This document shows positions 804 to 25,100 of a stretch of 26,407 bases of DNA, in pieces. How positions within the stretch are numbered: position 1 is the stretch's first letter; every line of letters begins with the position of its first letter. The stretch lies in the IMG/VR virus record IMGVR_UViG_3300009162_000020, positions 1 to 26,407 of that record; one strand, written 5' to 3'. The notes under the pieces were generated by a model that worked only from the letters and a program-made list of their open reading frames with translations, did no database searches and had not been told where the DNA came from. A program made the position numbers and the translations under genes. Origin of the DNA: a virus.

Positions 804-2255
804 ATGACGACCGGCCTGACCCTCCAGAGCGTCAAGTCCACTGCGGACTGGATCTACTCCTACGCTCTGAGTTCGGCCTTCCGCAGTCCCTACGTCTACG
901 ATCCGTCCTTCGCGCTCATGAAGGACCCGGACATCTGGGAGGTCGTTCGGAACGACGTCTCCACGATGGGCGCCATCACGCGGTCGACGAACTCGATCGT
1001 TCGGCCGTTCCGCGTTGAGGCCTTCTCCGACTCGAAGGATCCCAAGGACAAACAGCTCGCAGTGATCGTGAAGGACGGGATCTCGCAGATCGAACTGTTC
1101 GGCCGCCGGCGTCGGCGTCTTTCGGAGGCCAGGTTCCTCGCGCGCACGTACGGAGCAATCCTCTGGAGGAAGCAGAGAATCGCGCTCGGCGGCCTCCAGG
1201 AAATGGACTGGTACGTCCCCTACGAGATCAAGGACATCGACCGCCGGCGCATCCACTGGGTCACCGACTGGGACAAGGGGATGCTGAACAAGCTCGGCAT
1301 CCATCGGGAGATGTACAACACCGACACTCAGCGCTGGGAGGTGCTTCCCGAGCAGCTCCTCGACAGCATGATCGAGTACATGTTCGGCGACACGGAGGAC
1401 CGCGCCGGCAACGCTCGAGGCCTCCTGGAGCCGATCTACTTCTACCACTTCCTCAAGATGGGGACGTTCGAGAAGATCGCCGACGGCATCGACCGCTGGG
1501 CGAACGGCGTCTGGATCGCCAAGCTCGATGCCCTCCGGCCAGGCTCCACCGGGAGAACGAGCGAAGCCCTCCGGCAGGCGGCCGAGACGGTTCTCCTCAC
1601 TATCCGGAGCCAGCACGCGGCGGTCGTCGAGAAGGTCGACGACATCGAGATCAAAGAGACTTCGGGAACCGGTCACCAGATCGCGATGGACTTCGTCCGC
1701 TACCTGGACGAGGCGATCGAGCGCCTCTGCAACGGCTCCGTTCGCCCCGCTGGCCATTCGGTCGGAGGAACGGGATCCCGCGCGGCATCGGAGACGGAGG
1801 AGGATACGAGCGAGTCGTTCTTCCAGAACGAACGAGAGGACCATGACGCGATCATGACGCGCGACTTGGTGTGCGGCTTCCTCCGCTGGAACTGGCAGAC
1901 CATCGAACTCCTCAAGCTGGATAAGGCCAGGCGCCCACACTTCACGAGCGAGCAGATCAAGAAGCAGGACCCGAAGGTCGCGGTCGAGGTCATGAACTCG
2001 GCTCTCAAGTACGTGCCCCTCTCCCGCCGCCAGTACTTTGAGAAGATCGAGTGCGACGATCCCGGGGACAAAGAGGAGTCGATAGGCCCCTTCCCCGAAA
2101 TGGGACCTCCGGGCACCGGAGGATCTGCTCCGGACTTCCGGGACTTCGGGGTCGACACGGGACCGGACAAGTCCGGAAAGCCCAAGAAAGACTTCAGCTT
2201 CCCGAGCGGCAAGAAGGACGACGGGGAGAAGCCCAAGGAATCGAAGGAGGAATAG
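804..2255 (+). CDS. Portal protein, Mu gp29-like (DUF935 family)
   Basis: A 483-residue protein, a usual size for Mu-type portals, which form the dodecameric ring at the capsid vertex through which DNA enters. Family-like features are the IDRRRIHW segment (145-152), a GLLEPIYFYHFLKMGTFEK block (206-224) matching the family's aromatic 'GLL-P-Y-Y' region, a W-A-G-W-A-K block (232-240), and a GGTGSRAASE segment (321-330) like the G-[ST]-x-A-x-[ST]-E stretch found late in these portals. The last 50 or so residues are low-complexity, Gly/Pro/Lys/Glu-rich and probably disordered. In Mu the F gene follows directly; here it lies about 14.7 kb downstream. The call rests on pattern recognition of the family, not on an alignment. 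Confidence 0.8.
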   Translation: MTTGLTLQSVKSTADWIYSYALSSAFRSPYVYDPSFALMKDPDIWEVVRNDVSTMGAITRSTNSIVRPFRVEAFSDSKDPKDKQLAVIVKDGISQIELFGRRRRRLSEARFLARTYGAILWRKQRIALGGLQEMDWYVPYEIKDIDRRRIHWVTDWDKGMLNKLGIHREMYNTDTQRWEVLPEQLLDSMIEYMFGDTEDRAGNARGLLEPIYFYHFLKMGTFEKIADGIDRWANGVWIAKLDALRPGSTGRTSEALRQAAETVLLTIRSQHAAVVEKVDDIEIKETSGTGHQIAMDFVRYLDEAIERLCNGSVRPAGHSVGGTGSRAASETEEDTSESFFQNEREDHDAIMTRDLVCGFLRWNWQTIELLKLDKARRPHFTSEQIKKQDPKVAVEVMNSALKYVPLSRRQYFEKIECDDPGDKEESIGPFPEMGPPGTGGSAPDFRDFGVDTGPDKSGKPKKDFSFPSGKKDDGEKPKESKEE

Positions 2256-2257
2256 TC

Positions 2258-2530: not shown

Positions 2531-2543
2531 GAAAGCCGAAAGA

Positions 2544-3302: not shown

Positions 3303-3306
3303 GGGG

Positions 3307-5048: not shown

Positions 5049-5051
5049 GAG

Positions 5052-8800: not shown

Positions 8801-10020
8801 GCATCCATGATTTTGGCACTTTTTATCCCGTCTTCGCGGCGCTCATCACGCGGACGACCGGCCCGATCTTGGAGCTCGGCGCGGGTGATCACTCAACGAC
8901 GATGTTACATCTGATCTCGAGGGCCACGGGCCGCAAGGTGGTCACGGCGGAGACGGATCCGGCCTGGCTCAAGAAGTACGAGAACTACCAGAGCCCGAAC
9001 CATTCCTTCCACCTGATCACCCCGGACCGAACGAAGAAGGGTGAGTTCTATCAGTGGCAGGCGGGCTGGCAGGAGTGGGACCAGATCGAGAAGGAGAACT
9101 GGTCCGTCGCGCTCGTCGACCAGGCTCCCGGGGAGTGCCGAGCTTCCACCATCCTGAGATTGAAAGGCCGGTGCACCTTCATCGTAGCCCACGACTCCGA
9201 GGAGGACTACGGTGCCGGCGGCAACTACGGCTATGCGGAGATGAGGAAGCTCTTCAAGTACTGTTGGGAATGGCGCCGCTTCCGACCCTACACGATGGTC
9301 TTGAGCGACGACTCCATGCCGTTCGGCGACTTGAGGACCTGCAATGGAAATCGTAGGTGGGGATCCAGGGACCGACGTGAGGCTGCACGACAAGCTCTAT
9401 GCCCAGAAAACCGTCGCCTGCGGTGCTGCGGTGGCGCGCTTCAATACGATCTGCCTGGCCAAGCGCGCGATCGCCGAGGGAATCCCGGGGGACTTCGCGG
9501 AGTGCGGCGTGAACGCCGGCGCCCATCCCGCCTGCATGGCCTACGTCTCCGAGACCTACGGGAAGCTCGAAAGGAAGGTCCATCTCTTCGACAGCTTCCA
9601 GGGACTTCCCATGGCAGGACCGGACGACACCGAAGACGAGAAGCGGCTCTTGGGCGTGAACGAGGACCGCGAACACGGGAAGGCTGGGAATTACCTGCTC
9701 GCCGAGCGGTGGCAGGTCGAGCAGAACATGGAGAAATGGCACGTCGCGAAGAGCATCCTGGTTTACCACGAGGGCTGGTTCCAGGACACGCTCAAGGACG
9801 TCGCGAAGACGCTCGGGCCACTCGCCCTTCTCCGCGTAGACGTCGACCTTCACGACTCCACGCTGCCCGTCTTCCGCCACCTCTATCCGCTCGTCTCGAA
9901 GGGCGGATACATCATCAGCGACGACTGGGGCGAGGCCGGGGCCACGAGCGCGAGGCGCGCGACGCTCCAGGTTCTCTCGGAGCTCGGCTATCCGGAGCCG
10001 GACTGGACCCGGCTTCCTGA
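8797..10020 (+). CDS. Class I SAM methyltransferase-like protein with anomalous C-terminal extension
   Basis: The first 180 or so residues are a convincing class I methyltransferase: motif I GPILELGAGDHSTT (22-35), the acidic strand KVVTAETDP (47-55), WSVALVDQAPGECR (102-115) and CTFIVAHDSEEDY (126-138). The domain appears to end near VLSDDSMPFGDL (168-179), exactly where the next gene starts at 9344. The frame has no stop there and stays open to 10020, adding about 225 residues that are extremely Arg/Gly/Pro-rich and entirely out of frame with the TylF-like gene. I believe the native stop was lost and the tail is non-homologous shadow sequence. Whether the long form is made is unknown. Its start is ATGA-coupled to the glycosyltransferase upstream. 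Confidence 0.65.
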   Translation: MSIHDFGTFYPVFAALITRTTGPILELGAGDHSTTMLHLISRATGRKVVTAETDPAWLKKYENYQSPNHSFHLITPDRTKKGEFYQWQAGWQEWDQIEKENWSVALVDQAPGECRASTILRLKGRCTFIVAHDSEEDYGAGGNYGYAEMRKLFKYCWEWRRFRPYTMVLSDDSMPFGDLRTCNGNRRWGSRDRREAARQALCPENRRLRCCGGALQYDLPGQARDRRGNPGGLRGVRRERRRPSRLHGLRLRDLREARKEGPSLRQLPGTSHGRTGRHRRREAALGRERGPRTREGWELPARRAVAGRAEHGEMARREEHPGLPRGLVPGHAQGRREDARATRPSPRRRRPSRLHAARLPPPLSARLEGRIHHQRRLGRGRGHEREARDAPGSLGARLSGAGLDPAS

Positions 10021-10054
10021 GCAGATCTCGACCGTGTGGTGGAGGAAGCCATGA
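9344..10054 (+). CDS. TylF/MycF-type O-methyltransferase
   Basis: A 236-residue protein, a usual size for the macrocin-O-methyltransferase (TylF) family, whose characterised members methylate sugar hydroxyls of macrolides using SAM and a metal ion. Motifs are GDFAECGVNAG (49-59, SAM site), HLFDSFQGLP (80-89), LLRVDVDLHDST (162-173) with likely metal-ligand Asp residues, and GGYIISDDWG (187-196). In this context a sugar in a phage-made glycan is a plausible acceptor, which is inference. The gene starts inside the open frame of the upstream methyltransferase and ends in an ATGA overlap with the next glycosyltransferase. Confidence 0.9.
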   Translation: MEIVGGDPGTDVRLHDKLYAQKTVACGAAVARFNTICLAKRAIAEGIPGDFAECGVNAGAHPACMAYVSETYGKLERKVHLFDSFQGLPMAGPDDTEDEKRLLGVNEDREHGKAGNYLLAERWQVEQNMEKWHVAKSILVYHEGWFQDTLKDVAKTLGPLALLRVDVDLHDSTLPVFRHLYPLVSKGGYIISDDWGEAGATSARRATLQVLSELGYPEPDWTRLPEQISTVWWRKP

Positions 10055-10803
10055 TCATCCGTCCGTTCAACTTCACCTGCCAGCGGGACTGGAGGAGCTC
10101 CGAGCTGCTCGTCCGGTCCTGGAGGCGCTTCTCCCCGGAACCGTGGACGATTTACTTCGACCCGACCCAGCCAATCACCGAACGCATGACGGCCTTTTGC
10201 CAGGAGAACGGCGTCACGCTTCGGCTGCAGAGCCGGAAGGACTTCGGGCAATGGTGCTGGGATTCGTCGATGTGCAAGCTCGACGCTTGGCGCGAGATGG
10301 CGTCGGATCCTGCCCTCTCCGACGACGACTGGCTGATCTACTCGGACTCGGATGCGATGTTCCACTCCCCCGAGGTCAAGAACGAGCTCGCGGGAGACTT
10401 CTGCGGCTTCCCTCACTCGATCACCTACCCCGTGCCGTCCCTGAACACCGATCACTGGACCTTCTTCTCGGGCTGCCTCCAGGCTGGCCGCGTCGGCGTC
10501 GTGCGGAAAATGGGAGCGCTCCCCGACCCGCGCCTCGAGCAGATCAAGCAGGAGATGCTCACGCTCAACTTTTCCCACAACGAGGACGTGGTGATTTCGT
10601 TCCTCATGGCCCAAGTCGGCGCCGTCTACCGGCCTTTCCCCGGCGGAGGAGAGCCGAACCCGGAAGGCGTGCTCCTCGGGACGAAGAAGGCGGAGCGCCC
10701 GTTCTCCCACATGTACGGCGGATTCACCTCCTTCTGCGGAGTTCCGGTGACCGGCAAGTGGGACATCCCTCTGGCCCTCGAGAAGCTGGGGATCAAGATA
10801 TGA
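10051..10803 (+). CDS. Putative glycosyltransferase (DSD motif)
   Basis: A 250-residue protein from ATG 10051, with GGAGGAAG just upstream and an ATGA overlap with the TylF-like gene. GT-A-type features are an N-terminal strand IIRPFNFTC, WTIYFDP (32-38), and the motif DWLIYSDSDAMF (93-104) as the metal/nucleotide-sugar site. FFSGCLQAGRVGVVRKM and the HNEDVVISFLM acidic block follow, typical of acceptor-side and catalytic-base regions in such enzymes. No membrane segment is visible. It is soluble and probably acts in sequence with the neighbouring transferases; linkage and sugar are unknown. Confidence 0.75.
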   Translation: MIIRPFNFTCQRDWRSSELLVRSWRRFSPEPWTIYFDPTQPITERMTAFCQENGVTLRLQSRKDFGQWCWDSSMCKLDAWREMASDPALSDDDWLIYSDSDAMFHSPEVKNELAGDFCGFPHSITYPVPSLNTDHWTFFSGCLQAGRVGVVRKMGALPDPRLEQIKQEMLTLNFSHNEDVVISFLMAQVGAVYRPFPGGGEPNPEGVLLGTKKAERPFSHMYGGFTSFCGVPVTGKWDIPLALEKLGIKI

Positions 10804-11534
10804 CCCCCAGGATCTGCATCACGAGCGTCGGATGCCGAGAGCGGTACGTCCCATATCTCGACCGCCTCGAGGCAAGCCTGAAGCGGTGGAACCCGAACCT
10901 GCCGCGGCTTTTCTTTCGGGACTGCTGGCCTCCGAAGAGCCCGCCTCATCAGACGTCGCACTACGAGTTCAAGGCCCACGCCATGAAGGCGGTTTACTGG
11001 GCCGGCTTCAACGTCGGGATCTGGCTCGACGCCGCGTGCGAGGTCGTCGGAGACTTGAGCCCCATCCTGCAGAGGCTCGAAGAGACCGGCTACTATCTGA
11101 CCGCCGGAAACGAGCCGCTCGGGGAGTGGATCTCGGACCAGGCGCTCGCGAAGTACGGCATGAGCCGGGATCAGGCGATGGACCTCAAGCTCTGCGGCGG
11201 GGCGATCGTCGCCATCGACTTTCGGAGGGCGGAGATCCTGGGCTGGCCGTTCCTCCAGGAGTGGCTCCGGCTTGCCGAGGACGGGCTGTTCTACACCTCC
11301 CACAGCGAGTTCGCGCCGGACAAGATGACGTCCCTCCGGGTGAGCGACGGGCCGAAGAAGGAGGTCCACTCGACCGATCCGCGCTTCAAGGGGCACCGTT
11401 CGGACGAGGCCTGCTTCTCCCTCATGCTCCACAAGCGGGACCTTGAGCCGTTCTCGATCTACGAACACTTCTGTCAGGCGGAGTTCAAGAACCAGAACGC
11501 AGTCATCAAAACGGGATACGATGGACGCTTCTAG
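10800..11534 (+). CDS. Putative glycosyltransferase-like protein with atypical DxD site
   Basis: A 244-residue protein coupled by ATGA to the previous gene. It begins RICITSVGCRERYVPYLDRL (4-23), as in transferases of the 'protein of known sugar-cluster context' type, and has the strand VGIWLDAACEVVGDLSPI (72-89) where a DxD motif would sit. Here the motif reads D-A-A, so the second acidic residue is missing or displaced. A later GGAIVAIDF and the HRSDEACFSLML acidic block fit the GT-A plan. The same strand is open in another frame back to 10143, but that reading is the shadow of the upstream gene. The stop codon lies 14 bases inside the HNH gene that follows. Confidence 0.6.
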   Translation: MTPRICITSVGCRERYVPYLDRLEASLKRWNPNLPRLFFRDCWPPKSPPHQTSHYEFKAHAMKAVYWAGFNVGIWLDAACEVVGDLSPILQRLEETGYYLTAGNEPLGEWISDQALAKYGMSRDQAMDLKLCGGAIVAIDFRRAEILGWPFLQEWLRLAEDGLFYTSHSEFAPDKMTSLRVSDGPKKEVHSTDPRFKGHRSDEACFSLMLHKRDLEPFSIYEHFCQAEFKNQNAVIKTGYDGRF

Positions 11535-11961
11535 CTTCCTAAATCAGATCCTAGAGACGAACCTCTGCATTCTCTGGGGCGGAGCAAAGACCACGTCTGG
11601 GTACGGCCACGTCCGCATTGGTGGGCGGACAATGCTTGTTCACCGGGCCGCTTATCAGCTAGTTGTAGGGTGCATCCCTTCCGGTCTCCAGGTCCTTCAC
11701 TCCTGCGACATGACTCTCTGCTTCAATCCCAATCATCTTGAATTGGGCACTCAGTCTAAGAACCTACATGATTGCGTAACCCGAGGAAGGCACCCACGAG
11801 CCAACCGTAGACATTGCCCTCAAGGTCATCCTTACACGGCAGCGAACACAATCCTGCGAATCAGAACAAATTACTACAACGGGAACCTTTACAGAAGCCG
11901 TGACCGTCGCACCTGCGACAATCTCAGATCAGCTGTTTGGCGGAGACGAATGGCCTTATGA
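11521..11961 (+). CDS. HNH homing-type endonuclease
   Basis: A 146-residue protein of the HNH_3 type common as free-standing mobile genes in phages. The N-terminal CILWGGAKTTSGYGHVRIGG (16-35) is the usual lead-in. HRAAYQLVVG (41-50), VLHSCDMTLC (58-67) and FNPNHLELGT (68-77) form the beta-beta-alpha metal site with His60 and Asn69/His72. RHCPQGHPYTAANT (97-110) is the trailing Cys motif seen in this group. Hand-counted GC is about 53%, clearly below its neighbours. It sits exactly between two coupled genes: its ATG overlaps the end of the glycosyltransferase gene and its TGA forms ATGA with the FkbM gene. Confidence 0.9.
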   Translation: MDASSFLNQILETNLCILWGGAKTTSGYGHVRIGGRTMLVHRAAYQLVVGCIPSGLQVLHSCDMTLCFNPNHLELGTQSKNLHDCVTRGRHPRANRRHCPQGHPYTAANTILRIRTNYYNGNLYRSRDRRTCDNLRSAVWRRRMAL

Positions 11962-12557
11962 AGATTGAGGTCATCGACAACCACAGCGTCGCGACGGACC
12001 TCCTCCGCGGCGGCGCGGTGCTCGACGCCGGCGCGCGTGGCTTCCGTTTCTCCCGCTGGTTCGCGGAGCGCGGGCATAAGGTATACGCCTTCGACCCGGC
12101 GCCGGACATCGAGAACCTCCGCATCACGAACCTCAACTTCTACCGCATGGGCTTGGTCGGCACCGGGAAGCCTGGGGACTGGCATCTCGTCCAGTGCGAC
12201 GATCCGGAGGCTTCCTATTTGAAGCGCGGCGAGGCCGATCACTTCATCGCCACCACGGACATCCAGGGGATCATGTCGTTCTGCCGAATCCAGATGTTCG
12301 ACGTGGTCAAGTTGAACGTCGAGGGGGCCGAGTACGACATCCTAGAGTCCTGGCCCGGGCCCATTGCCCGCCAAGTAGTCGTCAGCTTCCACGAGCACAC
12401 CGGACGCGGCCGGGGGCGGGAGGGCTGCGACCTCCTCGTCGAGCGGATGCGGCAGTGGTACGACGTGCCGGTGCATCAGTGGGAACGGCGTTACTGCTGT
12501 TCGGAAAATTATTGGGATACGTTGTTCACGTTGCGCGGTTTGGAGATTCTCGTATGA
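11958..12557 (+). CDS. FkbM family SAM-dependent methyltransferase, paralogue
   Basis: A 199-residue protein from ATG 11958 (ATGA overlap with the HNH stop); the in-frame start at 11937 lies inside the HNH gene. SAM motif I is AVLDAGARGFRF (20-31), the acidic strand is KVYAFDPAPD (41-50), and the signature is DVVKLNVEGAEYDIL (115-129), followed by SFHEHTGRGRG (143-153). It matches the product at 6662 along its whole length (for example LVGTGKP versus LVGEGKP, and SWPGPIA versus TWPGPVA), so the two genes are paralogues. Asn replaces Asp in the signature (KLNVEG versus KMDIEG), a substitution found in some family members. Probably a sugar O-methyltransferase. Confidence 0.85.
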   Translation: MKIEVIDNHSVATDLLRGGAVLDAGARGFRFSRWFAERGHKVYAFDPAPDIENLRITNLNFYRMGLVGTGKPGDWHLVQCDDPEASYLKRGEADHFIATTDIQGIMSFCRIQMFDVVKLNVEGAEYDILESWPGPIARQVVVSFHEHTGRGRGREGCDLLVERMRQWYDVPVHQWERRYCCSENYWDTLFTLRGLEILV

Positions 12558-13462
12558 CCAAGCGCGCGATCATCGGCTCGACCCTGGACCACGATTATTC
12601 CTTCCTCTCGGTCATCGCCGCCCTCTGCTGGCGTGAGCGCATCGGCTATGAACCCTCGCTATTCCTGGTCGGGACCGAGGAGGACTGGCGCTCCCACAGG
12701 TACGGTTCGGTCGTTCTCAAGGCCGCCGACGACCGGTCGATCCACAAGGTCTTCGTCGACAGGATACAGGGCGTCGAGGACAAGACCGTCGCTCAGTGTT
12801 GCCGGCAGTACGCCGCGTGCCACGACTTCGCGGACTCCGACTACCTCATGCCGAGCGACGCTGATCTCCTGCCGATCAGGAAGGAGTTCTATCACCAGCA
12901 CGATCCCGAGAAGCACCCGATCGCCCTCTTCTACGCAAATGCCTACATCGGCGAGGAGGAGACGCACTGGCCCAGCTGCCACACGCCGATGCTTGCCGGC
13001 ACTTGGCGGGAGGTCATGGGCCTCGAGATCGGCAGGATGAGCGAGTGCATGCGACGGAACTTCGAGGAGTACGGCCTGCCCGACAAGATGAAGGCTTGGG
13101 AGGCCGAGTGCGCGGCGGCGAAGGCCGCGAATCGCCCCGCGGACTCTAAGTTCTTCTGGCCCGTCTGGTTCACGGACGAACTGGTCGTCTCGAAGAAGAT
13201 CAAGCAATCGCAATATTACCCGTCCCGCGTGCTGAAGATCGTTAGCGACGGCCACCCCCCCAAGGACCGGCTTGATCGCTCCTCCTGGCCGTTCTTCTGC
13301 GATGTAAACCGGTATGCGGACTCCCACAGCCTCCGGCCTGGGTGGTCCGCTCCAAACTGGCCGCGGCTCGCGCCCTTCCTGAAGAAGCTCCTTCCAGCCC
13401 ATGCCACGTGGCTCGACTGGTACCGCGTTGAGTTCCGCGAAGCGATCGGGGTGGATGCGTGA
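12554..13462 (+). CDS. Putative glycosyltransferase (DAD motif)
   Basis: A 302-residue protein coupled by ATGA to the FkbM gene. It starts RAIIGSTLDHDYSFLSVIAA (4-23), followed by LFLVGTEEDW (36-45). The motif ADSDYLMPSDADLLPI (93-108) is the probable DxD site. LFYANAYIGEEETHWPSCH and the FWPVWFTDELVVSKKI stretch contain the acceptor-side Trp-rich and acidic elements expected of GT-A enzymes. It is the longest of the DxD-type transferases in the cassette apart from the family 2-like enzyme at 14686. No signal peptide or membrane anchor is visible. Confidence 0.7.
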   Translation: MTKRAIIGSTLDHDYSFLSVIAALCWRERIGYEPSLFLVGTEEDWRSHRYGSVVLKAADDRSIHKVFVDRIQGVEDKTVAQCCRQYAACHDFADSDYLMPSDADLLPIRKEFYHQHDPEKHPIALFYANAYIGEEETHWPSCHTPMLAGTWREVMGLEIGRMSECMRRNFEEYGLPDKMKAWEAECAAAKAANRPADSKFFWPVWFTDELVVSKKIKQSQYYPSRVLKIVSDGHPPKDRLDRSSWPFFCDVNRYADSHSLRPGWSAPNWPRLAPFLKKLLPAHATWLDWYRVEFREAIGVDA

Positions 13463-13722
13463 AGGCTTGGACTGACATTACGTTTGACGGGAAGCGGCAC
13501 GCCATCGCGGCCGTCGACAACTTCAGGTTCGTCGTCTACTTCGAATGCGGCCTGGTCAAGCAGTTCACCGACAGGATCCAGATCCCCTATAAGCCCTGGA
13601 TCCCGCTGATCTCACCTGACCTCGGTCTGTCGAAGAAGGAAGCGATCGCCTTATTCGACGAGCACTGCAAGAAGTGCATGGGAGACCGCCGCTGGCAATT
13701 ACCTGAGGAGATCAAAACATGA
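13459..13722 (+). CDS. Small hypothetical protein
   Basis: An 87-residue protein with a GTG start overlapping the previous stop (GTGA) and a TGA overlapping the SDR start (ATGA). It looks like a short beta-rich N-terminus (TDITFDGKRHAIAAV, FRFVVYFECG) followed by a Pro-rich turn and a helix with a CKKC pair (KKEAIALFDEHCKKCMGD). I do not recognise a family. Confidence 0.65.
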   Translation: MKAWTDITFDGKRHAIAAVDNFRFVVYFECGLVKQFTDRIQIPYKPWIPLISPDLGLSKKEAIALFDEHCKKCMGDRRWQLPEEIKT

Positions 13723-14669
13723 GGGCTCTCGTCACCGGCGCTACCGGCTTCCTCGGGACGTGGATCTCGAACGAGTTGGGAAAGCTCGGCCACAAGGTCG
13801 TCCGTCTCGTCCGAGACCGCACGTTCGTCGAGAGCGGGATCTTGAACCGCGCCTTCGGCATGACCGACGCCTTCGGTGACGTGCTCGATCTCGAGTTCAT
13901 CGAACGCGTGATCGCCGAGTACGAGATCAATACGGTGTTCCACTTGGCCGCCCAGTCCCAGGTGAGCACAGGCCAGGCGGATCCCACCGGGACGCTTGAC
14001 ATCAACATCCGGGGGACGTGGAACGTTCTCGAGGCCTCGAGGCGGCAGAAGGTCGGCCGAGTGATCGTGGCCTCGAGCGACAAGAGCTATGGGGAGGCCC
14101 CAGACCTCCCGTACACGGAGTCCCACGCTCTCCGGGGCGGTTCACCCTACGAGACCTCGAAGGCGTGCGCCGATCTGCTGGCTCAGTCCTACGCCTCCAC
14201 TTACGGGATGTCGATCGCCATCACCCGCTGCGCGAACCTCTACGGCGGAGGCCATCTCAACTGGTCGACGCTCATCCCCGGAACGATCAAGCGGCTCTGG
14301 GATGGGATCCCGCCGGTCGTCTACGGCGGCGGAGAGATGACGCGCGAATTCCTCTACATCGAGGACGCCGTCTCGGCCTATCTCACCCTCGCGGAGAGCA
14401 GAGAGGTCGGAGCCTTCAACTTCGGCGGTGGCGAGCCGACTAAGGTGATCGACATCGTCCGGATGCTGATCGACATCATGGCGACCCGCGTCCAGCCGGA
14501 CATCCGCCAGGGCCAACGGATTGAGATTCGAGACCAGAGCCTGAGTTCGCTCAAGGCGCACAGTGTTCTCGACTGGTCTCCGAAGTGGTCGATGGCCGAC
14601 GGCTTGAAGGAAACGGTTCGCTGGTACGTGGAATGGCTGGTGGGTCAAGGGAACAGGATCGTGGTTTGA
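13719..14669 (+). CDS. Extended SDR sugar dehydratase/epimerase (CDP-glucose 4,6-dehydratase-like)
   Basis: A 316-residue NAD(P)-dependent extended short-chain dehydrogenase of usual length. The dinucleotide loop is VTGATGFLG (5-13), followed by VFHLAAQSQ (73-81), the active-site Ser in VASSDKSYG (117-125), and the Y-x3-K pair Tyr144/Lys148 in SPYETSK. The SSDK-x-YG motif together with RCANLYGGG and REFLYIEDAVSAYL recalls CDP-glucose 4,6-dehydratases more than UDP-glucose epimerases. The enzyme would convert a nucleotide sugar on the way to a deoxy or epimerised sugar. It is the only sugar-nucleotide-modifying enzyme seen, so its substrate probably comes from the host or from genes outside the window. 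ATGA-coupled at its start. Confidence 0.85.
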   Translation: MRALVTGATGFLGTWISNELGKLGHKVVRLVRDRTFVESGILNRAFGMTDAFGDVLDLEFIERVIAEYEINTVFHLAAQSQVSTGQADPTGTLDINIRGTWNVLEASRRQKVGRVIVASSDKSYGEAPDLPYTESHALRGGSPYETSKACADLLAQSYASTYGMSIAITRCANLYGGGHLNWSTLIPGTIKRLWDGIPPVVYGGGEMTREFLYIEDAVSAYLTLAESREVGAFNFGGGEPTKVIDIVRMLIDIMATRVQPDIRQGQRIEIRDQSLSSLKAHSVLDWSPKWSMADGLKETVRWYVEWLVGQGNRIVV

Positions 14670-14685
14670 CTGGGAGGAGGATTCG

Positions 14686-15639
14686 ATGCGACTGATTGGG
14701 CTCATGTGCGTCAGGAACGAGGCGTGGATTCTGGCCTGCTCCATGAGAGCAGCCCTGAAGTGGGTCGACGAGCTGGTGGTCGTTGATCACAATTCCACCG
14801 ACGGGACCTTCGACATCATCAACGAGATCTCGGCGGAGCACCCCTGGAGGGTCCATTACTCGCGGTGGCAGCCCACCGAGGAGAAGATCCTCGAAAGCGT
14901 CCATTCGACGAGCAGGACGATTCTCAATCCAACGCCCTCGAAGACCTGGAAGCAGCAGGTGCCGAGTGAGGACGAGTCGCGCTGGGATGAGCAGGATATG
15001 AGGCATCATTCCCTCGCGCTCGGCCGGCTCCGCGGCGGCACGCACTTCGCGATGATCGACGCGGACGAGATCATGACCGCGAACCTGATGGCGCGGATCC
15101 GGCAGGACGTGTACGCCTTGCAGCCCGGGGAGGTCCTCGACTACCCGCTCTATGCGATGCGTTCACTCGACGAGTTCCAGGATGACAACACGCACTGGTC
15201 TCGAGGCGTGTGCTCGCTCGTCTTCAGGGATGCGCCGCACCTAACCTGGAAGCCGGCCGCCGATGGGTACCACTTCCATTCCCGCGTTCCCTGGGGAGCT
15301 GGGAAGCGGATCGAGCCCGTGAAGTGGCGCGACGGCGGCGTCATGCATCTCCAGTGGGTCAACCATCGGCGCCTGGTTGCAAAACATTGCTGGTACCGCA
15401 TGGTCGAGACTGTTCGCTACCCGAACCGGATGACGGCCCAGAGGCTGAACGAGAAGTACGACGACGCCCTTCGGCCGCCCGGGCGAGTGAGCACCACCCC
15501 CAGCGACTGGTGGCGCGACTACGACCCTGGCCTGATCCAACTCAACGGCTGGCCGTGGCATGAGGGCGAGGTCCGGCGCATGGTGGACAAGTACGGCCTT
15601 GGCAAGTTCGAAGGGCTGGATCTCAAGGGGCTTGTGTGA
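14686..15639 (+). CDS. Family 2-like glycosyltransferase
   Basis: A 317-residue protein with its own strong site (GGGAGGAGG, about 8 bases before ATG 14686) in place of the stop-start coupling used upstream. It begins LIGLMCVRNEAWIL (3-16), then VDELVVVDHNSTDGT (27-41), the hallmark nucleotide-binding region of GT2/GT92-type glycosyltransferases. FAMIDADEIM (121-130) supplies the DxD. A later HLQWVNHRRLVAKHCWYRM block and a Trp-rich end (DWWRDYDPGLIQLNGWPWHEGE) complete the domain. Best-supported glycosyltransferase of the cassette and its last gene. Sugar and acceptor unknown. Confidence 0.85.
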   Translation: MRLIGLMCVRNEAWILACSMRAALKWVDELVVVDHNSTDGTFDIINEISAEHPWRVHYSRWQPTEEKILESVHSTSRTILNPTPSKTWKQQVPSEDESRWDEQDMRHHSLALGRLRGGTHFAMIDADEIMTANLMARIRQDVYALQPGEVLDYPLYAMRSLDEFQDDNTHWSRGVCSLVFRDAPHLTWKPAADGYHFHSRVPWGAGKRIEPVKWRDGGVMHLQWVNHRRLVAKHCWYRMVETVRYPNRMTAQRLNEKYDDALRPPGRVSTTPSDWWRDYDPGLIQLNGWPWHEGEVRRMVDKYGLGKFEGLDLKGLV

Positions 15640-15656: not shown

Positions 15657-15663
15657 AAGGAGG
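15657..15663 (+). promoter_or_regulatory. Strong Shine-Dalgarno site for the triple-GroES gene
   Basis: AAGGAGG ending 5 bases before ATG 15669. A full-consensus site of this kind supports the start and implies efficient independent translation, unlike the coupled cassette genes. Confidence 0.65.
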
Positions 15664-15668
15664 CCTAA

Positions 15669-16598
15669 ATGCCGCGCACCGTCATCACTGCCGATCTCGA
15701 CGTTGAGAGCTTGATCCCCACGCAGGACCACGTTCTCGTGAAGGTCCTCGACCGGGACGTGACGGCCGGCGGGATCCTTCTCCCGAAGAACGCCGCGACG
15801 GCCTGCCGCGTCGCGAAGGTGATCTCTCGCGGGAAGGCCATCCCGAACGCGTACGACGGGAACGACTTCCCGATCAAAGTCGAGCCCGGCGAGCACGTGA
15901 TGTTCATGGACTACGCGGGCGAGAAACTGCGCGCCTTCTGGAGAGACTACCGCCTGATCCGAGAGCATGGGCTCTGGGCCAAGGTGGAGTTCGGCGCGGG
16001 GCACGATGTCATCGACTTTGAGAAGATCGAGCCCTGGGCGGACCGCCTCGTCCTCGAGCGCCAGGACGAGAGCATGACGAAGAGCGGGCTTCTCCATCTC
16101 CCGAACGCGCATCTCAAGATCGCCTGGAACCTCGCCACCGTGAAGTGGTCCGGCTTCGGCGTCTGGCACCAGCCAACTGCGAAGCTCCTTCCGTGCGAGT
16201 GCCAACCCGGAGACAAGGTGATTTTCAAGAGATACTCCGGTGAGGACCTCCGCGTCCGCGGAAAGGAGTACCGGATCACGCAGGAGGTCGACGTGGTCGC
16301 GATCATCGACCACGGAGTTCTCCGGCCGCTGCGGAACAAGGTGGTGATCGAGCGGAAGACGGCCGACTCGAAGACGAAGGGCGGCCTCCTCATCCCCGAC
16401 ACCGCCAAGACCAAGCACGTCACGGGAACGGTCGTTTCGGTCGGTGGCGTTCTCCTGGCGGACGGGGACCTTCATCCCTCGCCGCTTGAGGCCGGAGACC
16501 AGGTGCTATTCAAGGAAACGCCTGGGACGGAGATCGTACACGACGGCCGAGAGTTCGTGATCATGGATCAGTCTCTCGTCCTCGCGAAGGTGGAATAG
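15669..16598 (+). CDS. Co-chaperonin with three tandem GroES/Cpn10 domains
   Basis: A 309-residue protein built of three consecutive GroES-like domains, about residues 16-107, 120-213 and 217-309. Each repeats the family order. First comes an opening strand (DHVLVKVLDR, DRLVLERQDE, NKVVIERKTA). The GroEL-binding mobile loop follows (TAGGILLP, TKSGLLHLP, TKGGLLIP). Next is the P/A-G-[DE]-x-V-x-F strand with a hairpin (EPGEHVMFMDYAGE, QPGDKVIFKRYSGE, EAGDQVLFKETPGT). Last is a closing strand (YRLIREHGLWAKVE, YRITQEVDVVAIID, FVIMDQSLVLAKVE). Ordinary GroES is about 97 residues and forms a heptamer. Phage homologues such as T4 gp31 are single-domain and act with host GroEL on capsid protein folding. 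No groEL is visible here. Domain 3 is closest to standard GroES; domain 2 has an interrupted mobile loop (His143). Confidence 0.9.
   Translation: MPRTVITADLDVESLIPTQDHVLVKVLDRDVTAGGILLPKNAATACRVAKVISRGKAIPNAYDGNDFPIKVEPGEHVMFMDYAGEKLRAFWRDYRLIREHGLWAKVEFGAGHDVIDFEKIEPWADRLVLERQDESMTKSGLLHLPNAHLKIAWNLATVKWSGFGVWHQPTAKLLPCECQPGDKVIFKRYSGEDLRVRGKEYRITQEVDVVAIIDHGVLRPLRNKVVIERKTADSKTKGGLLIPDTAKTKHVTGTVVSVGGVLLADGDLHPSPLEAGDQVLFKETPGTEIVHDGREFVIMDQSLVLAKVE
15714..16595 (+). repeat. Three diverged GroES domain repeats within one gene
   Basis: Protein-level repeats at about 15714-15989, 16026-16307 and 16317-16595. They are easily aligned by the mobile-loop and P-G-D-x-V-x-F motifs but are not obvious as DNA repeats, so the fusion or duplication is old. 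Confidence 0.8.
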
Positions 16599-16929: not shown

Positions 16930-17811
16930 GTGATCTCATCCATCAAGGAACTGAACGGCTTCCTGGACCGCCGAGCGAGCGCCTTCGAGCGGGCGCTTCT
17001 CGCGCTCTTGAAGTCCCGCTATGCACAAGGCGGCGATGAAGAGCAGGCGTTCTCCAACCTCACCGCGCTCCTCGGCGCCACGCTCGTCCTCGCCCAGCTG
17101 CACGGCCGCCGGCGGACGCTGCTTGAGGCGGACCGTCTTCGGGAGGCGCCTGCGGCGGCGTTCGAAGCGAAACCGGAGAAGTCACCCCTTTCCATGGGCC
17201 TCGCCTTCGAGGAGGCAGTCGAGGATCTACTGGCGCGCGAACCCAGACTCGTCTCAAGCGCCCGCGAGATTGCCGAGCTCTATTCCCAGGGCAAGGTCTT
17301 CGCCATGGCCAAATCGATCTCGCGGAGACTCACGGAGCGTGTCCAAGCGGCGATCACGCAGATGATGATCTCCGGTGAGAACCTCGGGAAGGGAGAGAAT
17401 GAGATCCTCCGAATCGCCTCGGAGGAGTCGCACGACTGGGTACGCGCCTACGCATCGACGGTCTATCGGACGAACGTCGCGAACGCCTACACCGAGGGAA
17501 GGCTTACTCAGGTTCAGAACCCGGAGGTTGCGGAGGTCGTGAAAGCATTCGAGTTCGTTGGCATCGACGACGCCAGGACGCGGCCCAATCACCGTGCGGC
17601 GCACGGTCTCATCGCGGCGATCGACGATCCGATCTGGGCCCGCATGCGCCCGCCCCTGGGGTACCAGTGCCGATGCGGCATCATCTTCGCGGGTCGGTAC
17701 ACGCTCGAGAGGAAGGGCCTGATCAACAAGGATGGGTCGGTGAAGAGGTACGAACCGCCCGGGTTCTCCGCGGCGGGGCCGGATGCGGGATTCAAGGGAG
17801 GGGAACTGTGA
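16930..17811 (+). CDS. Phage head morphogenesis protein, Mu gpF-like (MuF domain)
   Basis: A 293-residue protein from GTG 16930. The first 170 residues are helical. The MuF domain follows: YRTNVANAYTEGRL (179-192), then GIDDARTRPNHRAAHG (211-226) and the closing PPLGYQCRCGI (241-251), the D-x-R-T-R-P-x-H and PP-G-x-x-C-R-C pattern that defines the family. MuF proteins are minor head proteins thought to sit near the portal and help early head assembly; in Mu the gene follows the portal directly. Here the two are separated by the cassette. The size is normal for a stand-alone MuF protein, with no toxin domain fused. Its stop overlaps the next ATG. Confidence 0.9.
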   Translation: MISSIKELNGFLDRRASAFERALLALLKSRYAQGGDEEQAFSNLTALLGATLVLAQLHGRRRTLLEADRLREAPAAAFEAKPEKSPLSMGLAFEEAVEDLLAREPRLVSSAREIAELYSQGKVFAMAKSISRRLTERVQAAITQMMISGENLGKGENEILRIASEESHDWVRAYASTVYRTNVANAYTEGRLTQVQNPEVAEVVKAFEFVGIDDARTRPNHRAAHGLIAAIDDPIWARMRPPLGYQCRCGIIFAGRYTLERKGLINKDGSVKRYEPPGFSAAGPDAGFKGGEL

Positions 17812-18108: not shown

Positions 18109-19752
18109 ATGAGCACGGCAACCGCGACACCGAAGATCGACCTGAAGGCCGCCTTCGATTCCGCCGGATACGACGTCTTCTCCTTCACGCCAGCCGAACA
18201 GTCCGCCATCTCGGCGAAGATCCAGAAGCTCCGCGACGAAGGGAAGCCGCAGCGTCAGGCCATCGCGATCGCCATCAGCATGGTCACGCCTGGCAAGGCG
18301 AAGAAGCAGTCGACGGCGACGGCCGCATTCTCGGCCTCGAATGACGGCGCGCCGGGCCCGAAGCCCAAGATCAAGCTCCGGGGCGGCAGCTACGCCTGGC
18401 ATGACGACGGCGACGGGTACTTCACGATCTTCGACGTGCCCATCATGAGCATCGTGAAGAAGGGCGTGAAGGGCGCGCCCATGGACGTCGATGAGGCCGA
18501 GCTCAACCGCTACGTCCAGGTGGCCCAGGAGCGGTATCACCACTGGAACTACTGCGCGACGGCCTTCGTGAACCACAACAAGGACGTCGAGTTCGAGAAG
18601 CCGGAGTTCGCCGGCTACGTCCTTCCCTACCGCGTCGGTCCCGCCGCACTCGAGGATGAGACCGGCGTCATGAGGACCGTGCCCGCGGTCTTCGCGAACC
18701 TGAAGGTCAACGAGAGCACCTTCCGGAAGATCGAGCGCGGCGAACTGCCCTACCACAGCCCGGAGGTTCCCTGGGCCAAGCGCCGGATCTCCGGCCTCGC
18801 GTTCCTCGACACGAAGCCCCCGTTCTTCGAGTTCCCGAACCTGACGCTCGGCGACGAGCAGAAGGACCTGACTTACGCCGACTCGGCCACTTTTTCGGAG
18901 GTTCCCGTGAAGGACATCAAGCGCGAACCCGTGGGCCGCTTCGACGCCGACGGCGATGGCGACGGCGGAGTGAAGCAGATGCTCAAGAACCTCGACGCCA
19001 AGATGTCGGCGATGGAGGCGAAGTACGCGGCCTTCGAAGGCCAGTTCGCCGCCATGAAGAAGAAGTTCGAAGGCGAGGCCGGAGACCTGTCCGGCACGAA
19101 GGTCGCCTCCACCGGCGGCAACGGTTCGAATCCTCCGACGAACCCCGCCGGCGGCACGTCGACCCCCGTCCTCAAGGGCAAGGCCGAAGGAGAGGGCGAT
19201 GGAGACGCCGACGGCGAGGCGGGCAAGAAGGGGAAGAAGGGCACGTTCGCGGGCGAGAAGGGAAACCCGCTCCCCGTCGAGCCGACCACGCCGGTCGTCG
19301 ACCCGAAGTTCGTCGCGCAGTTCGAAGCCACGAACGCGCGCCTCGCGGTCCTCGAGAAGGAGCGCGCCGACGAAAAGGCCGCGGTCACCAAGAAGGACCG
19401 CGTCGCCTGGGCTCGCAAGGAGCTCTCGGGGAAGATGCTTCGCCAGGGCTTCGACGAGTTCATCGGCCAGTTCGCCTCGGACGAGGCGCAGTTCAAGGCC
19501 ATCGTCGACGAGATGAAGAAGTCCCTCCCCGCCGAGCCTCCCAAGAGCATGGCGGACTTCAAGGGCGTGGCCGTCGAGCCGAACGCGCCGTCGGTCGCGA
19601 AGTTCGCGAACCTGGGCCCCGAGCAGGGCGAGATGGCGGCGAAGTTCGCCGCGCAGTACCGCGAGATGAAGCGCCTGAAGTGGCCCACCCAGCAGACCGA
19701 GGAGCAGTTCGTGAAGTTCCAGATGGAAGCCGCCACCGGGCTGAGCGCCTAG
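18109..19752 (+). CDS. Head maturation protease fused to scaffold, Mu I-like
   Basis: A 547-residue protein. Residues 25-58 carry a motif seen in many phage proteins (AEQSAISAKIQKLRDEGKPQ then AIAIAISM). Residues 90-245 fit a Mu gpI-type protease: FTIFDVPIMS, then FVNHNKD with candidate catalytic His156, VFANLKVNESTFRKIERGEL, and PYHSPEV with candidate Ser217 at the 'G-E-x-x-Y-x-S-P' site. Residues 287-322 form a charged coiled-coil-like helix. A long Gly/Asp/Lys/Pro-rich linker (about 323-400) and another helical region follow, as expected for a scaffold. In Mu the protease (I) and scaffold (Z) come from overlapping genes; here both seem to be one chain. It would be cleaved and removed during capsid maturation. 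Confidence 0.65.
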   Translation: MSTATATPKIDLKAAFDSAGYDVFSFTPAEQSAISAKIQKLRDEGKPQRQAIAIAISMVTPGKAKKQSTATAAFSASNDGAPGPKPKIKLRGGSYAWHDDGDGYFTIFDVPIMSIVKKGVKGAPMDVDEAELNRYVQVAQERYHHWNYCATAFVNHNKDVEFEKPEFAGYVLPYRVGPAALEDETGVMRTVPAVFANLKVNESTFRKIERGELPYHSPEVPWAKRRISGLAFLDTKPPFFEFPNLTLGDEQKDLTYADSATFSEVPVKDIKREPVGRFDADGDGDGGVKQMLKNLDAKMSAMEAKYAAFEGQFAAMKKKFEGEAGDLSGTKVASTGGNGSNPPTNPAGGTSTPVLKGKAEGEGDGDADGEAGKKGKKGTFAGEKGNPLPVEPTTPVVDPKFVAQFEATNARLAVLEKERADEKAAVTKKDRVAWARKELSGKMLRQGFDEFIGQFASDEAQFKAIVDEMKKSLPAEPPKSMADFKGVAVEPNAPSVAKFANLGPEQGEMAAKFAAQYREMKRLKWPTQQTEEQFVKFQMEAATGLSA

Positions 19753-20325: not shown

Positions 20326-21297
20326 ATGCCCAGCGCAGCGATTTCGGCACTCCTGACCCCCGGCATGAAGAGCGAGTTCGCGCTCGCCTACCAGCCGCGG
20401 TACGACGGGATCGTGAAGGAGCTCGGCGACGTCATCTGGCTCGACGCCACGTCGGACAAGCTCTTCGAGGTCTACGGCATCGTCGATTCCGCGGTGCATC
20501 CCGCGCGCTGGGATCCGGGCCGGACCATCCCCTCGAAGAAGCTGGGCGGCACGAACTTCACCATCACGAACCGCGACTTCGGCCGGCGCGTCCTCCTGCC
20601 CCGCAACTTCGACGACGAGCAGACGGGCCAGCTGATGAACGTCGCCCGCACGACCGGCTCGCGCTGGGTCCTCCTCCCCGAGCGCATCTTCTACCAGTAC
20701 ATCCAGGTCGCCACGGACCCGGATCTGCTGCCCGCCGTCCCGAACTCCGCCGACGGCAACGCGCTCTACCTGACCACGTCGCGCTACGGCAGCTCGACGG
20801 GCAACGGCGTCAGCCAGACCGGCTCGACGACCACGCAGAGCGTCATCACCGACCTCTACTCCGGCGTCCAGACGTTCCGGAACTTCCAGGACACGGAGAG
20901 CCAGCCGTTCTTCGACGTCGCCCTGACGCGCGACATCAGCGTGTTCTACGGGACGTCGCTCACCCTCGTGATCGAGCAGGTGGCGAACCAGGCGCTCACG
21001 CACTCGGTCGTGAGCTCGACGGGCGCCGCGGTCTCGAACGTCGCCATGTACGGCACGATCAACTGGAAGTTCATCGGGAGCCAGAGGATCACCACCTCGC
21101 GGCTGTTCCTGTTCCTCCGGAACCTCCCGAACGAGCTCCGGCCGATCGTCCGCCAGGTGCGGAAGGGGATGACGGCGGCCCAGGCGAACTGGGACATCTC
21201 CGACTACACCCGCGACACGGGCGAGCCGTACTGGCAGTTCCACAGCCGCGAAGGCTGGGGTTCCGCCAACGCGCGCGGCACCGTCCGGATCGCGTAG
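20326..21297 (+). CDS. Major capsid protein, Mu gpT-like
   Basis: A 323-residue protein, close to the length of Mu gpT (about 305). FTITNRDFGRRVLLPRNFDD followed by EQTGQL (78-104) matches the gpT-type segment that precedes the long helix, which here is ARTTGSRWVLLPERIFYQYI (107-126). The middle contains a Ser/Thr/Gly-rich variable region (about 148-182), then Ile/Leu/Val-rich strands. TINWKFIGSQRITTSRLFLF lies near the C-terminal axial domain. HK97-fold proteins of this group form the shell. Location after protease/scaffold and decoration genes and a very strong ribosome site support the call. It is the likely client of the triple-GroES protein. Confidence 0.85.
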   Translation: MPSAAISALLTPGMKSEFALAYQPRYDGIVKELGDVIWLDATSDKLFEVYGIVDSAVHPARWDPGRTIPSKKLGGTNFTITNRDFGRRVLLPRNFDDEQTGQLMNVARTTGSRWVLLPERIFYQYIQVATDPDLLPAVPNSADGNALYLTTSRYGSSTGNGVSQTGSTTTQSVITDLYSGVQTFRNFQDTESQPFFDVALTRDISVFYGTSLTLVIEQVANQALTHSVVSSTGAAVSNVAMYGTINWKFIGSQRITTSRLFLFLRNLPNELRPIVRQVRKGMTAAQANWDISDYTRDTGEPYWQFHSREGWGSANARGTVRIA

Positions 21298-21333
21298 GCC
21301 GCGACCATACTCGGGTTTCAACTGGGAGGCGAT

Positions 21334-22215
21334 ATGGCAGGCAAGGACAGAGAAGGTGCATCCTCGGATGTCGGATCGTCCGTGATCTCGACGGCTCCCG
21401 CTCCGGGAGCCAGCCGCGTCGCGTCGAGTCCGCTCACGGTCGACGTCATCCGTGACCCCGCCGAAGGCATGGCCCTCTACTGGTGCGGGACCCTCCTCAT
21501 GGAGGGAGATTTCGACTTCGAGGTGCCGGCGACGCTCCAGGAGATCGACGGCGGAATCGTCTCCGAAGGGGACGACGGCGGATTCTGCAAGCCCATCAAG
21601 ACCACGGCGTGGAAGCAGTGGTATCCCGGACCGGGGAAGCCGAGCTTCTGGGCCGCCCGGAACCGCTACTTCCAGCAGCTCGACGTGACGGGCCTCTCCT
21701 TCCCGGCGTTCAGCGAGGAACGCGGTCGAGATGCGGCGAACGAAGACGTGGGCCACAAGTACGCCTGGCCCGGCTGCATCTTCGCCATGAGCGACTCGGA
21801 CATCAAGAGAGTGCTCGAGAGCGTCCAGAACCACGCGATCCGGCCGCTCGGGCCGGCGTGGCACTCCTTCCCCGGCGCGAAGGTCGTGAACTACAAGCAC
21901 GCCCACATGCCCGGATGCCCCGGCGGCCGCCTCCTCACGGCGCCGTACTGCCAGAAGTGCGAGGACATCGAGAAGGCGATCGCGGACTCGAAGAACGAGC
22001 GCCTCCTGCCGCAGCGCAACCAGGATCCGGAGTACCGCCACCGGGAGGATCTCCCGATCTCGGATTTCATCTACCTGCTCAAGCTCGGGGCGTCCTGGGA
22101 TACGCCCCGCGACCTCTACACGAGCCTCGTTCCGACGATGGCGGAGTTCATCAAGAAGCAGCCTCCTTCCCTCTCGCGCGACCTGAACAAGGCGCCGAAG
22201 GGCGGGGCGGCGTAA
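21334..22215 (+). CDS. Hypothetical protein downstream of the capsid gene
   Basis: A 293-residue protein with GGGAGG about 6 bases before ATG 21334. The N-terminal 35 residues are Ser/Ala/Gly-rich and disordered. A compact region follows (LYWCGTLLMEGDFDFEVP, YPGPGKPSFWAARNRYF). Near the middle are several His and Cys residues (YKHAHMPGCPGGRL, then YCQKCEDIEKA) that could bind zinc. The C-terminal part is helical and basic. I do not recognise a family. A virion or head-assembly role is inferred from its place in the structural operon. Confidence 0.7.
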   Translation: MAGKDREGASSDVGSSVISTAPAPGASRVASSPLTVDVIRDPAEGMALYWCGTLLMEGDFDFEVPATLQEIDGGIVSEGDDGGFCKPIKTTAWKQWYPGPGKPSFWAARNRYFQQLDVTGLSFPAFSEERGRDAANEDVGHKYAWPGCIFAMSDSDIKRVLESVQNHAIRPLGPAWHSFPGAKVVNYKHAHMPGCPGGRLLTAPYCQKCEDIEKAIADSKNERLLPQRNQDPEYRHREDLPISDFIYLLKLGASWDTPRDLYTSLVPTMAEFIKKQPPSLSRDLNKAPKGGAA

Positions 22216-22233
22216 CGAAGGGGGTCCGGACCG

Positions 22234-23589
22234 ATGGCACCGCCGACCAGAGCGCAGATCGAGTCGGCCTGGGCGGCTGGCATCAAGCTGGTCGACCAGA
22301 TCTTCCGCTTCGGCTCGAAGAACGCGACGAACTTCGTTTCGCTGCTCCAGACGCTGCAGCCCCTCCTCTTCGGGGATTGGTCGAACGAAGCGACAGACGT
22401 TGCCTCGGCGATCAGGAGCACTCTCTCCGGCAGCTGCTCCCGCAGCGCGATCCAGTCCTTCATGCGCGCGTTCATGAAGATGTACGTGCAAGGCGTGATC
22501 GGCCGGACCGACCTCTCGACCGACACGGCCATGGCGGCGGAGATCTACAAGTACTTCATCGACAACCGTCTGCGCGTGCCGAGCAGAGGGATCACGTTCG
22601 GATCCCCGACTGCCGCCGCGGCGAACATCGGAACGAGCCAGCTCCTCCGGTTGACGACGGATCGATTCAACTTTCCAATCGAAGCAGCCTCCCTCGACGC
22701 GAAGAGGTGCCGCTGCATCCTCGACCAGAACACCGGAGCACAGGGTCAGGGCGGTGAATCCTGGTACCTCGAAGGTCAGACCCCTCCCATCGATGACCTT
22801 CAGCGTTCCGGAAGCGGCCTGACCACGACGCTGAAGGGAATCACGTCCGACGATTCCATTCTCTCGAATCCTGACTTCCGGAACTTCACCGCGACGTCAC
22901 CGGTCACTGGCGGTCTCACGACGACGCTCACGGACATCACCGACTGGACCTGCACGCCATCCGTTTCCGGCACCACCTATCAGCTGGACAACTACGCGAA
23001 CAACATCTATCGGGTGCCGCCCTCAAACAGCTTGGCCGGTGCTTACTCGCTGGTCCTCCTCGCCACCGCGCTTCTCACCCAGAAGCTCTCGCTCCGGAAC
23101 AAGAAGCTGAACCAGGACCTGCCGTACGCCCTCGTCATCATCTGGAACCGTCAGATCGGGGCCGCTAGCGGCACGCTCAAGATCCGGATGGGGAATACCG
23201 AGACGGTGGTGTCGGTGTCGGCGCAGACGGGATGGCAGGTCACGGTTTGCCCGCCGAACCGCGGCTGGTCGAACTGGTACCGCGTATTCGCCGAGGATGA
23301 TCTCCAGATCGACATCGACTGGACGTCGACGGGCGGCAGTCTCTACATCTCCGAGATCCTGCTCTTCCCCTTGACGCCGGCGACGTCCGGGAACGGGTTT
23401 GATGGCTACTTCGCGGTGATCCCGAGTTCCGCGCCGGTCTGGAAAGCGCCCAGGATTTTCGACGAGTTCAACTTCGCGGACATGGTCACGGGATCGGACG
23501 GCATCAATCAGCGGACGCTCGGGTTCGCATTCCCTGGATTCTATCTTCCGTCGAGCGTCACCTCGGGAATCACGTTCGCAGACGCATAG
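22234..23589 (+). CDS. Putative virion protein with carbohydrate-binding-like beta-sandwich
   Basis: A 451-residue protein. The first 115 residues are helical and could anchor it to the particle. Residues about 208-385 read like a jelly-roll/CBM-type beta-sandwich: SNPDFRNFTATSP near the start, ITDWTCTPS, then YALVIIWNRQ, a GTLKIRMGNTETVVSV strand pair and LQIDIDWTSTGGSLYISEIL at the end. Such domains occur in phage head fibres and surface proteins that bind glycans. Many Ser/Thr residues are present. Function and location on the virion are inferred, not proven. No cleavage motif or chaperone domain is visible. Confidence 0.65.
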   Translation: MAPPTRAQIESAWAAGIKLVDQIFRFGSKNATNFVSLLQTLQPLLFGDWSNEATDVASAIRSTLSGSCSRSAIQSFMRAFMKMYVQGVIGRTDLSTDTAMAAEIYKYFIDNRLRVPSRGITFGSPTAAAANIGTSQLLRLTTDRFNFPIEAASLDAKRCRCILDQNTGAQGQGGESWYLEGQTPPIDDLQRSGSGLTTTLKGITSDDSILSNPDFRNFTATSPVTGGLTTTLTDITDWTCTPSVSGTTYQLDNYANNIYRVPPSNSLAGAYSLVLLATALLTQKLSLRNKKLNQDLPYALVIIWNRQIGAASGTLKIRMGNTETVVSVSAQTGWQVTVCPPNRGWSNWYRVFAEDDLQIDIDWTSTGGSLYISEILLFPLTPATSGNGFDGYFAVIPSSAPVWKAPRIFDEFNFADMVTGSDGINQRTLGFAFPGFYLPSSVTSGITFADA

Positions 23590-23598
23590 GAGTCAACA

Positions 23599-23943: not shown

Positions 23944-23953
23944 GGAGGGCCGG

Positions 23954-24415: not shown

Positions 24416-24417
24416 AC

Positions 24418-25098: not shown

Positions 25099-25100
25099 CG

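Follow-up and report, generated by a model that had tools for sequence, protein, structure and literature searches.

How could a protein carrying three GroES domains in one chain cap a chamber with seven seats? The GroES lid over the GroEL folding chamber normally consists of seven separate pieces. This question is raised by IMGVR_UViG_3300009162_000020, an IMG/VR record of an uncultivated phage, a linear fragment of 26.4 kb analyzed here over its full 26,407 nucleotides (hereafter the window). An initial annotation of this DNA had proposed that one gene encodes three tandem GroES domains in a single polypeptide, placed among phage head genes, and had pointed out that three such domains do not divide evenly into a seven-fold ring. 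We confirm that three GroES domains lie in one uninterrupted frame, and that this arrangement is real and recurrent. We further propose that the 309-aa protein is probably a phage co-chaperonin, two chains of which would place six domains on a host GroEL ring for the folding of head proteins, with a single-domain GroES in the seventh seat or that seat left empty.

Table 1. Features of the three-domain GroES locus and its surroundings in the window (D1–D3, GroES domains 1–3; residues are those of the 309-aa protein).
Feature	Position	Strand	Basis
Mu-type portal protein	804..2255	+	Pfam Portal_Mu, 90.4 bits
Sialyltransferase-like gene	2544-3302		phrog_4603
FkbM methyltransferase	6662-7234		in ~13-kb cassette
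HNH_3 endonuclease	11443-11961		40.3 bits; in cassette
Nucleotide-sugar epimerase	13719-14669		in ~13-kb cassette
GT2 glycosyltransferase	14686-15639		in ~13-kb cassette
Shine-Dalgarno AAGGAGG, 5 nt before ATG	15657..15663	+	sequence; anti-SD duplex -11.4 kcal/mol
Three-domain GroES (Cpn10) co-chaperonin gene, 309 aa	15669..16598	+	single open frame; Pfam PF00166 3.5e-51, three stretches
GroES domain 1 (residues 14-107)	15708..15989	+	Pfam 51.2 bits; modest model confidence
Mobile-loop motif GGILLP, D1 (residues 34-39)	15768..15785	+	sequence; low-pLDDT segment 30-43
GroES domain 2 (residues 119-214)	16023..16310	+	Pfam 46.6 bits; barrel pLDDT ~90; 3nx6 match
Mobile-loop motif SGLLHLP, D2 (residues 139-145)	16083..16103	+	sequence; low-pLDDT segment 135-148
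AGGAGG-N5-GTG, in frame, codon 209, last strand of D2	16282..16295	+	-10.9 kcal/mol; speculative
GroES domain 3 (residues 217-309), most canonical	16317..16595	+	Pfam 83.6 bits; 4v4o_P match
Mobile-loop motif GGLLIP, D3 (residues 238-243)	16380..16397	+	sequence
MuF-like minor head protein, downstream of GroES gene	16930..17811	+	Pfam Phage_Mu_F 72.8 bits; phrog_220
Probable major capsid protein	20326..21297	+	Mu-like_gpT 17.4 bits, below cut-off 20.1; inferred with position after MuF

The gene reads from an ATG at 15669 to a stop at 16598, giving 309 codons with no internal stop. Scored as separate pieces (residues 1–118, 119–216, and 217–309), all three parts of the protein exceed the curated Pfam PF00166 (Cpn10) cut-off of 21.1 bits (Table 1). 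A six-frame profile search of the record returned the same three Cpn10 matches in one 309-aa frame, and PHROG 3188 “co-chaperonin GroES” also aligns to the protein in three stretches. The loops and strands quoted in the initial annotation are all there: a hydrophobic mobile loop is present in three of three domains, and the G[DE]xVxF strands read GEHVMF, GDKVIF, and GDQVLF. That annotation had also called the D2 loop interrupted and suggested specialized roles for the domains. The D2 loop does contain a one-residue insertion, but its hydrophobic residues are kept, and the specialized roles are at most conjectural. All domains further contain a segment of roof-hairpin length, 12–15 residues running from a VGG, SRG, or WSG turn to the G[DE]xV strand, as judged by eye from the sequence. 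The Cpn10 score, mobile loop, roof-hairpin-length segment, and G[DE]xVxF strand are thus shared with GroES/Cpn10 (PF00166). Whereas GroES assembles from seven identical chains, however, the 309-aa protein has three diverged domains per polypeptide (27.7–29.7% pairwise identity), and so departs from the one-domain-per-chain, seven-chain ring.

Could the long frame have arisen by erroneous joining of adjacent genes? The interdomain linkers are short, at ~11 residues between D1 and D2 and ~2 residues between D2 and D3. In-frame starts near the D2 and D3 boundaries comprise GTG 106 and GTG 209, each within the final strand of the domain that precedes, and codons 225/226, already inside D3; there are no others. 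Such short linkers and badly placed starts make error-joined genes unlikely. Position-3 GC, at 86%, is in line with that of neighboring genes. Moreover, the same architecture occurs in a second viral lineage, described below, which argues that the triple is no isolated assembly accident. The sole further contig of this virus that we found, IMGVR_UViG_3300050503_000112 (4842 bp), is 100% identical over 20353–25194 and stops short of the GroES gene; it is either an independent assembly or derived from the same sample as the record.

Structure prediction agrees with the profile matches. An AlphaFold2 model built on a modest alignment reached a mean pLDDT of 71.5 for the whole chain and 72.2 for residues 1–216. 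The D2 and D3 barrels are confident and D1 is less certain, while the mobile loops are poorly ordered, with the low-pLDDT segments 30–43 and 135–148 being what is expected of such loops. Modeled D2 matches GroES 3nx6 (Z 10.9, rmsd 1.4, 75 residues) and modeled D3 matches 4v4o_P (Z 12.1, rmsd 2.5, 93 residues), so that a GroES beta-barrel fold is predicted for both. VIA rows for residues 4–117, covering D1, are mostly MDR oxidoreductases at Z ~6, which we take to reflect the wider GroES-like fold of the modeled domain.

Over the full length, the structures that match best are 7ekq_Q and 7ekq_R, two-domain co-chaperonins of the chloroplast (Foldseek E 4.7e-11 and 1.4e-10, ~205 columns; VIA for 7ekq_R, Z 13.6, rmsd 4.3, 179 residues), followed by ordinary GroES/Cpn10 chains. 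Like the 309-aa protein, Cpn20 and Cpn23 of chloroplasts and apicoplasts join Cpn10 domains covalently head to tail through short linkers. They have two domains and belong to a eukaryotic organelle, whereas the present protein has three and is viral, and the likeness does not imply homology of the fusions. In BFVD, the unnamed viral protein A0A516L046 (304 aa) matches the whole three-domain model (TM 0.57/0.58), so that one or more chains of this kind have probably been deposited unremarked.

We searched for the same architecture in other viruses with degenerate DNA patterns designed to match a pair of GroES domains in succession. These patterns assume particular glycine codons and spacings, and the census is therefore a lower bound. 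It yielded a viral contig, L056, encoding a 319-residue GroES with three domains. A search with the L056 protein added six further contigs with a full-length triple at ~66% identity and one more that is truncated at its end. This second triple lineage (L056 and L198–L203) spans seven metagenome IDs and proteins of 319–322 aa, and all seven full-length contigs give three Cpn10 matches over the cut-off in one frame. Three-domain GroES thus occurs in no fewer than two viral lineages. Between L056 and L198, dN is 0.24 and dS ~2.2, the latter near saturation and not computable for D1; between L198 and L202, dN is 0.011 and dS 0.20. In both pairs dN lies well below dS in each domain with a computable dS, which indicates that the triple is maintained by purifying selection in this lineage.

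Two-domain fusions also occur. L208 (IMGVR_UViG_3300043173_000111) encodes a 206-aa double GroES at 2477–3097, between portal (phrog_156) and scaffold/major capsid protein (MCP) genes (phrog_8865, phrog_283). The cultured Cellulophaga phage phi18:3 carries a single GroES, gp080 (31108–31362), and a 200-aa GroES-annotated protein, gp096 (41458–42060), whose gene lies shortly before those for terminase and portal. In gp096, the Pfam profile is passed by the C-terminal half alone; the N-terminal half fails it, and is a probable diverged second GroES domain judging from a fold match and inspection by eye. L208 and phi18:3 therefore resemble the present locus in having a fused GroES near portal or terminase genes, but with two domains.

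Other searches delimit how widely such fusions can be seen. A sequence search of INPHARED phages recognized no tandem GroES; the matches were single-domain, with gene lengths checked for part of them, and several are probably host groES genes in unannotated records. Direct searches of IMG/VR and GTDB contigs with the 309-aa protein, and likewise with the portal, gave no matches. Among the matches listed, a genome scan with the DNA patterns showed only single-domain GroES at the loci fetched, and 150 genomes of the phylum of genome G018 showed no same-frame Cpn10 pair. The initial annotation had known of no described phage example. A search of open-access full texts likewise turned up no account of a phage tandem GroES or of a GroES with three domains. 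In viral sequence data, however, fusions of two and of three domains do exist.

How did these fusions arise? In L022, a relative of L056 and L198, the place of the fused triple is taken by a pair of overlapping but separate genes for single-domain GroES (4507–5117). Judged by eye, the two places look syntenic, with a phosphoesterase-like frame before the GroES genes and similar frames after them. In a tree of individual domains, the L022 pair and the L056/L198 domains form one clade (support 97/94) that excludes D1–D3 of the 309-aa protein, so that the 309-aa triple is probably an independent fusion. A clade uniting D1–D3 is neither supported nor rejected (AU p 0.42), which leaves both duplication within the gene and fusion of unlike genes as routes to the 309-aa triple.

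The gene neighborhood points to a role in head assembly. The three-domain gene sits between the portal gene, ~13 kb upstream, and the genes for MuF and the probable MCP downstream. The initial annotation had placed it between a glycan cassette and MuF, protease, and capsid genes. The head-gene region holds up, with MuF and portal confirmed, but neither Pfam nor PHROGs found a protease identity for the gene at 18109–19752, and the capsid assignment is weak at a score below the cut-off. The ~13-kb run at 2256–15639, which extends from the portal to GroES and MuF, consists mostly of small unknown genes, some of them glycan-related, and includes an HNH_3 gene that is possibly a homing element. A glycan cassette within a head operon seems unusual.

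A location of GroES between portal and capsid genes is an established pattern in phages. Five other phages (L010, L011, L012, L016, and L017) have single-domain GroES genes between portal and MCP, and GroES is among the 13 core genes of HTVC023P-type pelagiphages (PMC9599517). The GroES proteins of HTVC027P, Roseobacter phage CRP-902, DSL-LC04, and Podoviridae ct2G2228 share the portal-to-MCP position of the 309-aa protein but are single-domain proteins of 107–155 aa. This established placement makes capsid folding the favored role, as the initial annotation had suggested; the parallels with single GroES genes, the pelagiphage core gene, and the L208 double make the suggestion reasonable. The same role is not assured for both triple lineages, because the L056/L198 triple, which likewise has three Cpn10 domains per chain, differs in neighborhood: it has other neighbors and does not visibly lie between portal and MCP. 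One of those neighbors, ~2 kb downstream of the triple in L198 (6910–7614), encodes a head maturation protease of ClpP-like type (phrog_94). Its proximity is notable given that algal co-chaperonins are known to bind ClpP.

T4 gp31, a phage-encoded co-chaperonin for capsid protein folding, offers a functional analogy for the 309-aa protein. The roof hairpin of T4 gp31 is reduced, giving a wider cage. As far as the eye can tell from sequence, no such reduction occurs in the 309-aa protein, and the enlarged folding cage envisaged in the initial annotation finds no support, given that a roof-hairpin-length segment is kept in every domain. The two proteins also differ in that gp31 has a single domain and little sequence similarity to the present protein (1g31_A; Z 8.1, 11% identity).

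We propose the following model. Three GroES subunits would be joined covalently head to tail in one chain, and two chains would place six GroES domains next to one another to cap a single seven-fold host GroEL ring, with their mobile loops binding the GroEL apical domains. No GroEL gene was found in any of ten records searched, so the partner would be the GroEL of the host. The seventh position may stay empty or be taken by a single-domain GroES, either the host’s or a phage one encoded outside the fragment. Made together with the head proteins, the lid would then allow GroEL to fold one or more of them. In this model we infer that the protein binds GroEL, that each ring takes two chains, what fills the seventh seat, and that the client is a capsid protein.

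The mismatch between three and seven is less of an obstacle to this model than the initial annotation implied. There are three domains per chain, as it proposed, but chains of six to eight concatenated GroES domains reportedly function with GroEL, and one- and two-domain subunits of Chlamydomonas mix into seven-domain lids (PMC5780408). Working six-domain concatamers and algal mixing to seven mean that the indivisibility of seven by three is not fatal. The Chlamydomonas Cpn11/20/23 heterotetramer, which sits on one side of ClpP (7ekq; PMC8889267), itself counts one Cpn11, one Cpn23, and two Cpn20 chains, or seven domains. Two-domain cpn20 substitutes for GroES in E. coli (PMC3542282), and GroEL binding needs at least four functional subunits of seven (PMC4242682).

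The gene might even supply its own seventh subunit. Translation from the AGGAGG-N5-GTG motif at codon 209 would add a single-domain GroES of ~101 aa to the 309-aa triple, so that one mRNA would furnish exactly seven domains, six from two triples and one from the single. By pairing energy the motif ranks second of the 228 in-frame start codons tested inside genes of the window. Codon usage alone gives a ~18% probability for the motif given the amino acids, and the L056/L198 lineage keeps an in-frame Met at the D3 start with a poor Shine-Dalgarno (~-3 kcal/mol). We regard use of this candidate start as unlikely.

Other functions have to be weighed against a GroEL lid. A ring of fused GroES domains could instead cap a ClpP-type protease, either host ClpP or a phage ClpP-like head protease, and control access to it. 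The closest full-length structural matches come from just such an assembly, the Chlamydomonas ClpP complex capped by Cpn11/20/23, and the title of a preprint cited in its description states that Cpn11/20/23 inhibits ClpP (PMC8889267); the phrog_94 protease near the triple of the L056/L198 lineage points the same way. However, the 7ekq match reflects a solved entry that contains two-domain co-chaperonins and carries no functional link, no ClpP-like gene was recognized in the window among the proteins scanned, and GroEL adequately explains the single-domain GroES of other phage head operons. We give a protease cap little credence. Much the same holds for the idea that the triple works poorly as a lid or locks in place, jamming host GroEL or diverting it from host clients. 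Diverged domains in a number mismatched to the ring could slow release, but the loops are intact in all three domains, and both the head-gene position and the parallel single phage GroES genes favor help with phage folding.

The chain might also be a precursor. Phage head assembly involves maturation proteases, and a phage or host protease could cut at sites such as the ~11-residue linker between D1 and D2, releasing three single-domain subunits to form an ordinary heptamer. No cleavage motif was identified, and the D2–D3 linker is as short as in a Cpn20-type fusion, so that processing of this kind appears very unlikely. Finally, the tandem barrels could be a structural or scaffold head protein that is GroES by ancestry only, a reading to which the resemblance of D1 to GroES-like domains of MDR oxidoreductases and the lack of GroEL in the record might lend themselves. 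Yet mobile loops serve GroEL binding and would otherwise be free to decay, and here they are kept in all three domains, each with a strong Cpn10 score. A purely structural protein is in our estimation highly improbable. The lid for host GroEL remains the reading we favor.

GroEL-type chaperonins are described as seven-fold, and the way multi-domain lids accommodate this symmetry has been examined in chloroplasts and with engineered concatamers. The viral fusions described here indicate that co-chaperonin fusion extends beyond plastids. With its series of paired single, double, and triple domains, the viral set can be used to ask whether a GroEL ring needs seven contacts. A natural three-domain lid can likewise be used to ask whether phages mix their subunits with those of the host, and whether certain capsid clients are better served by an asymmetric lid.
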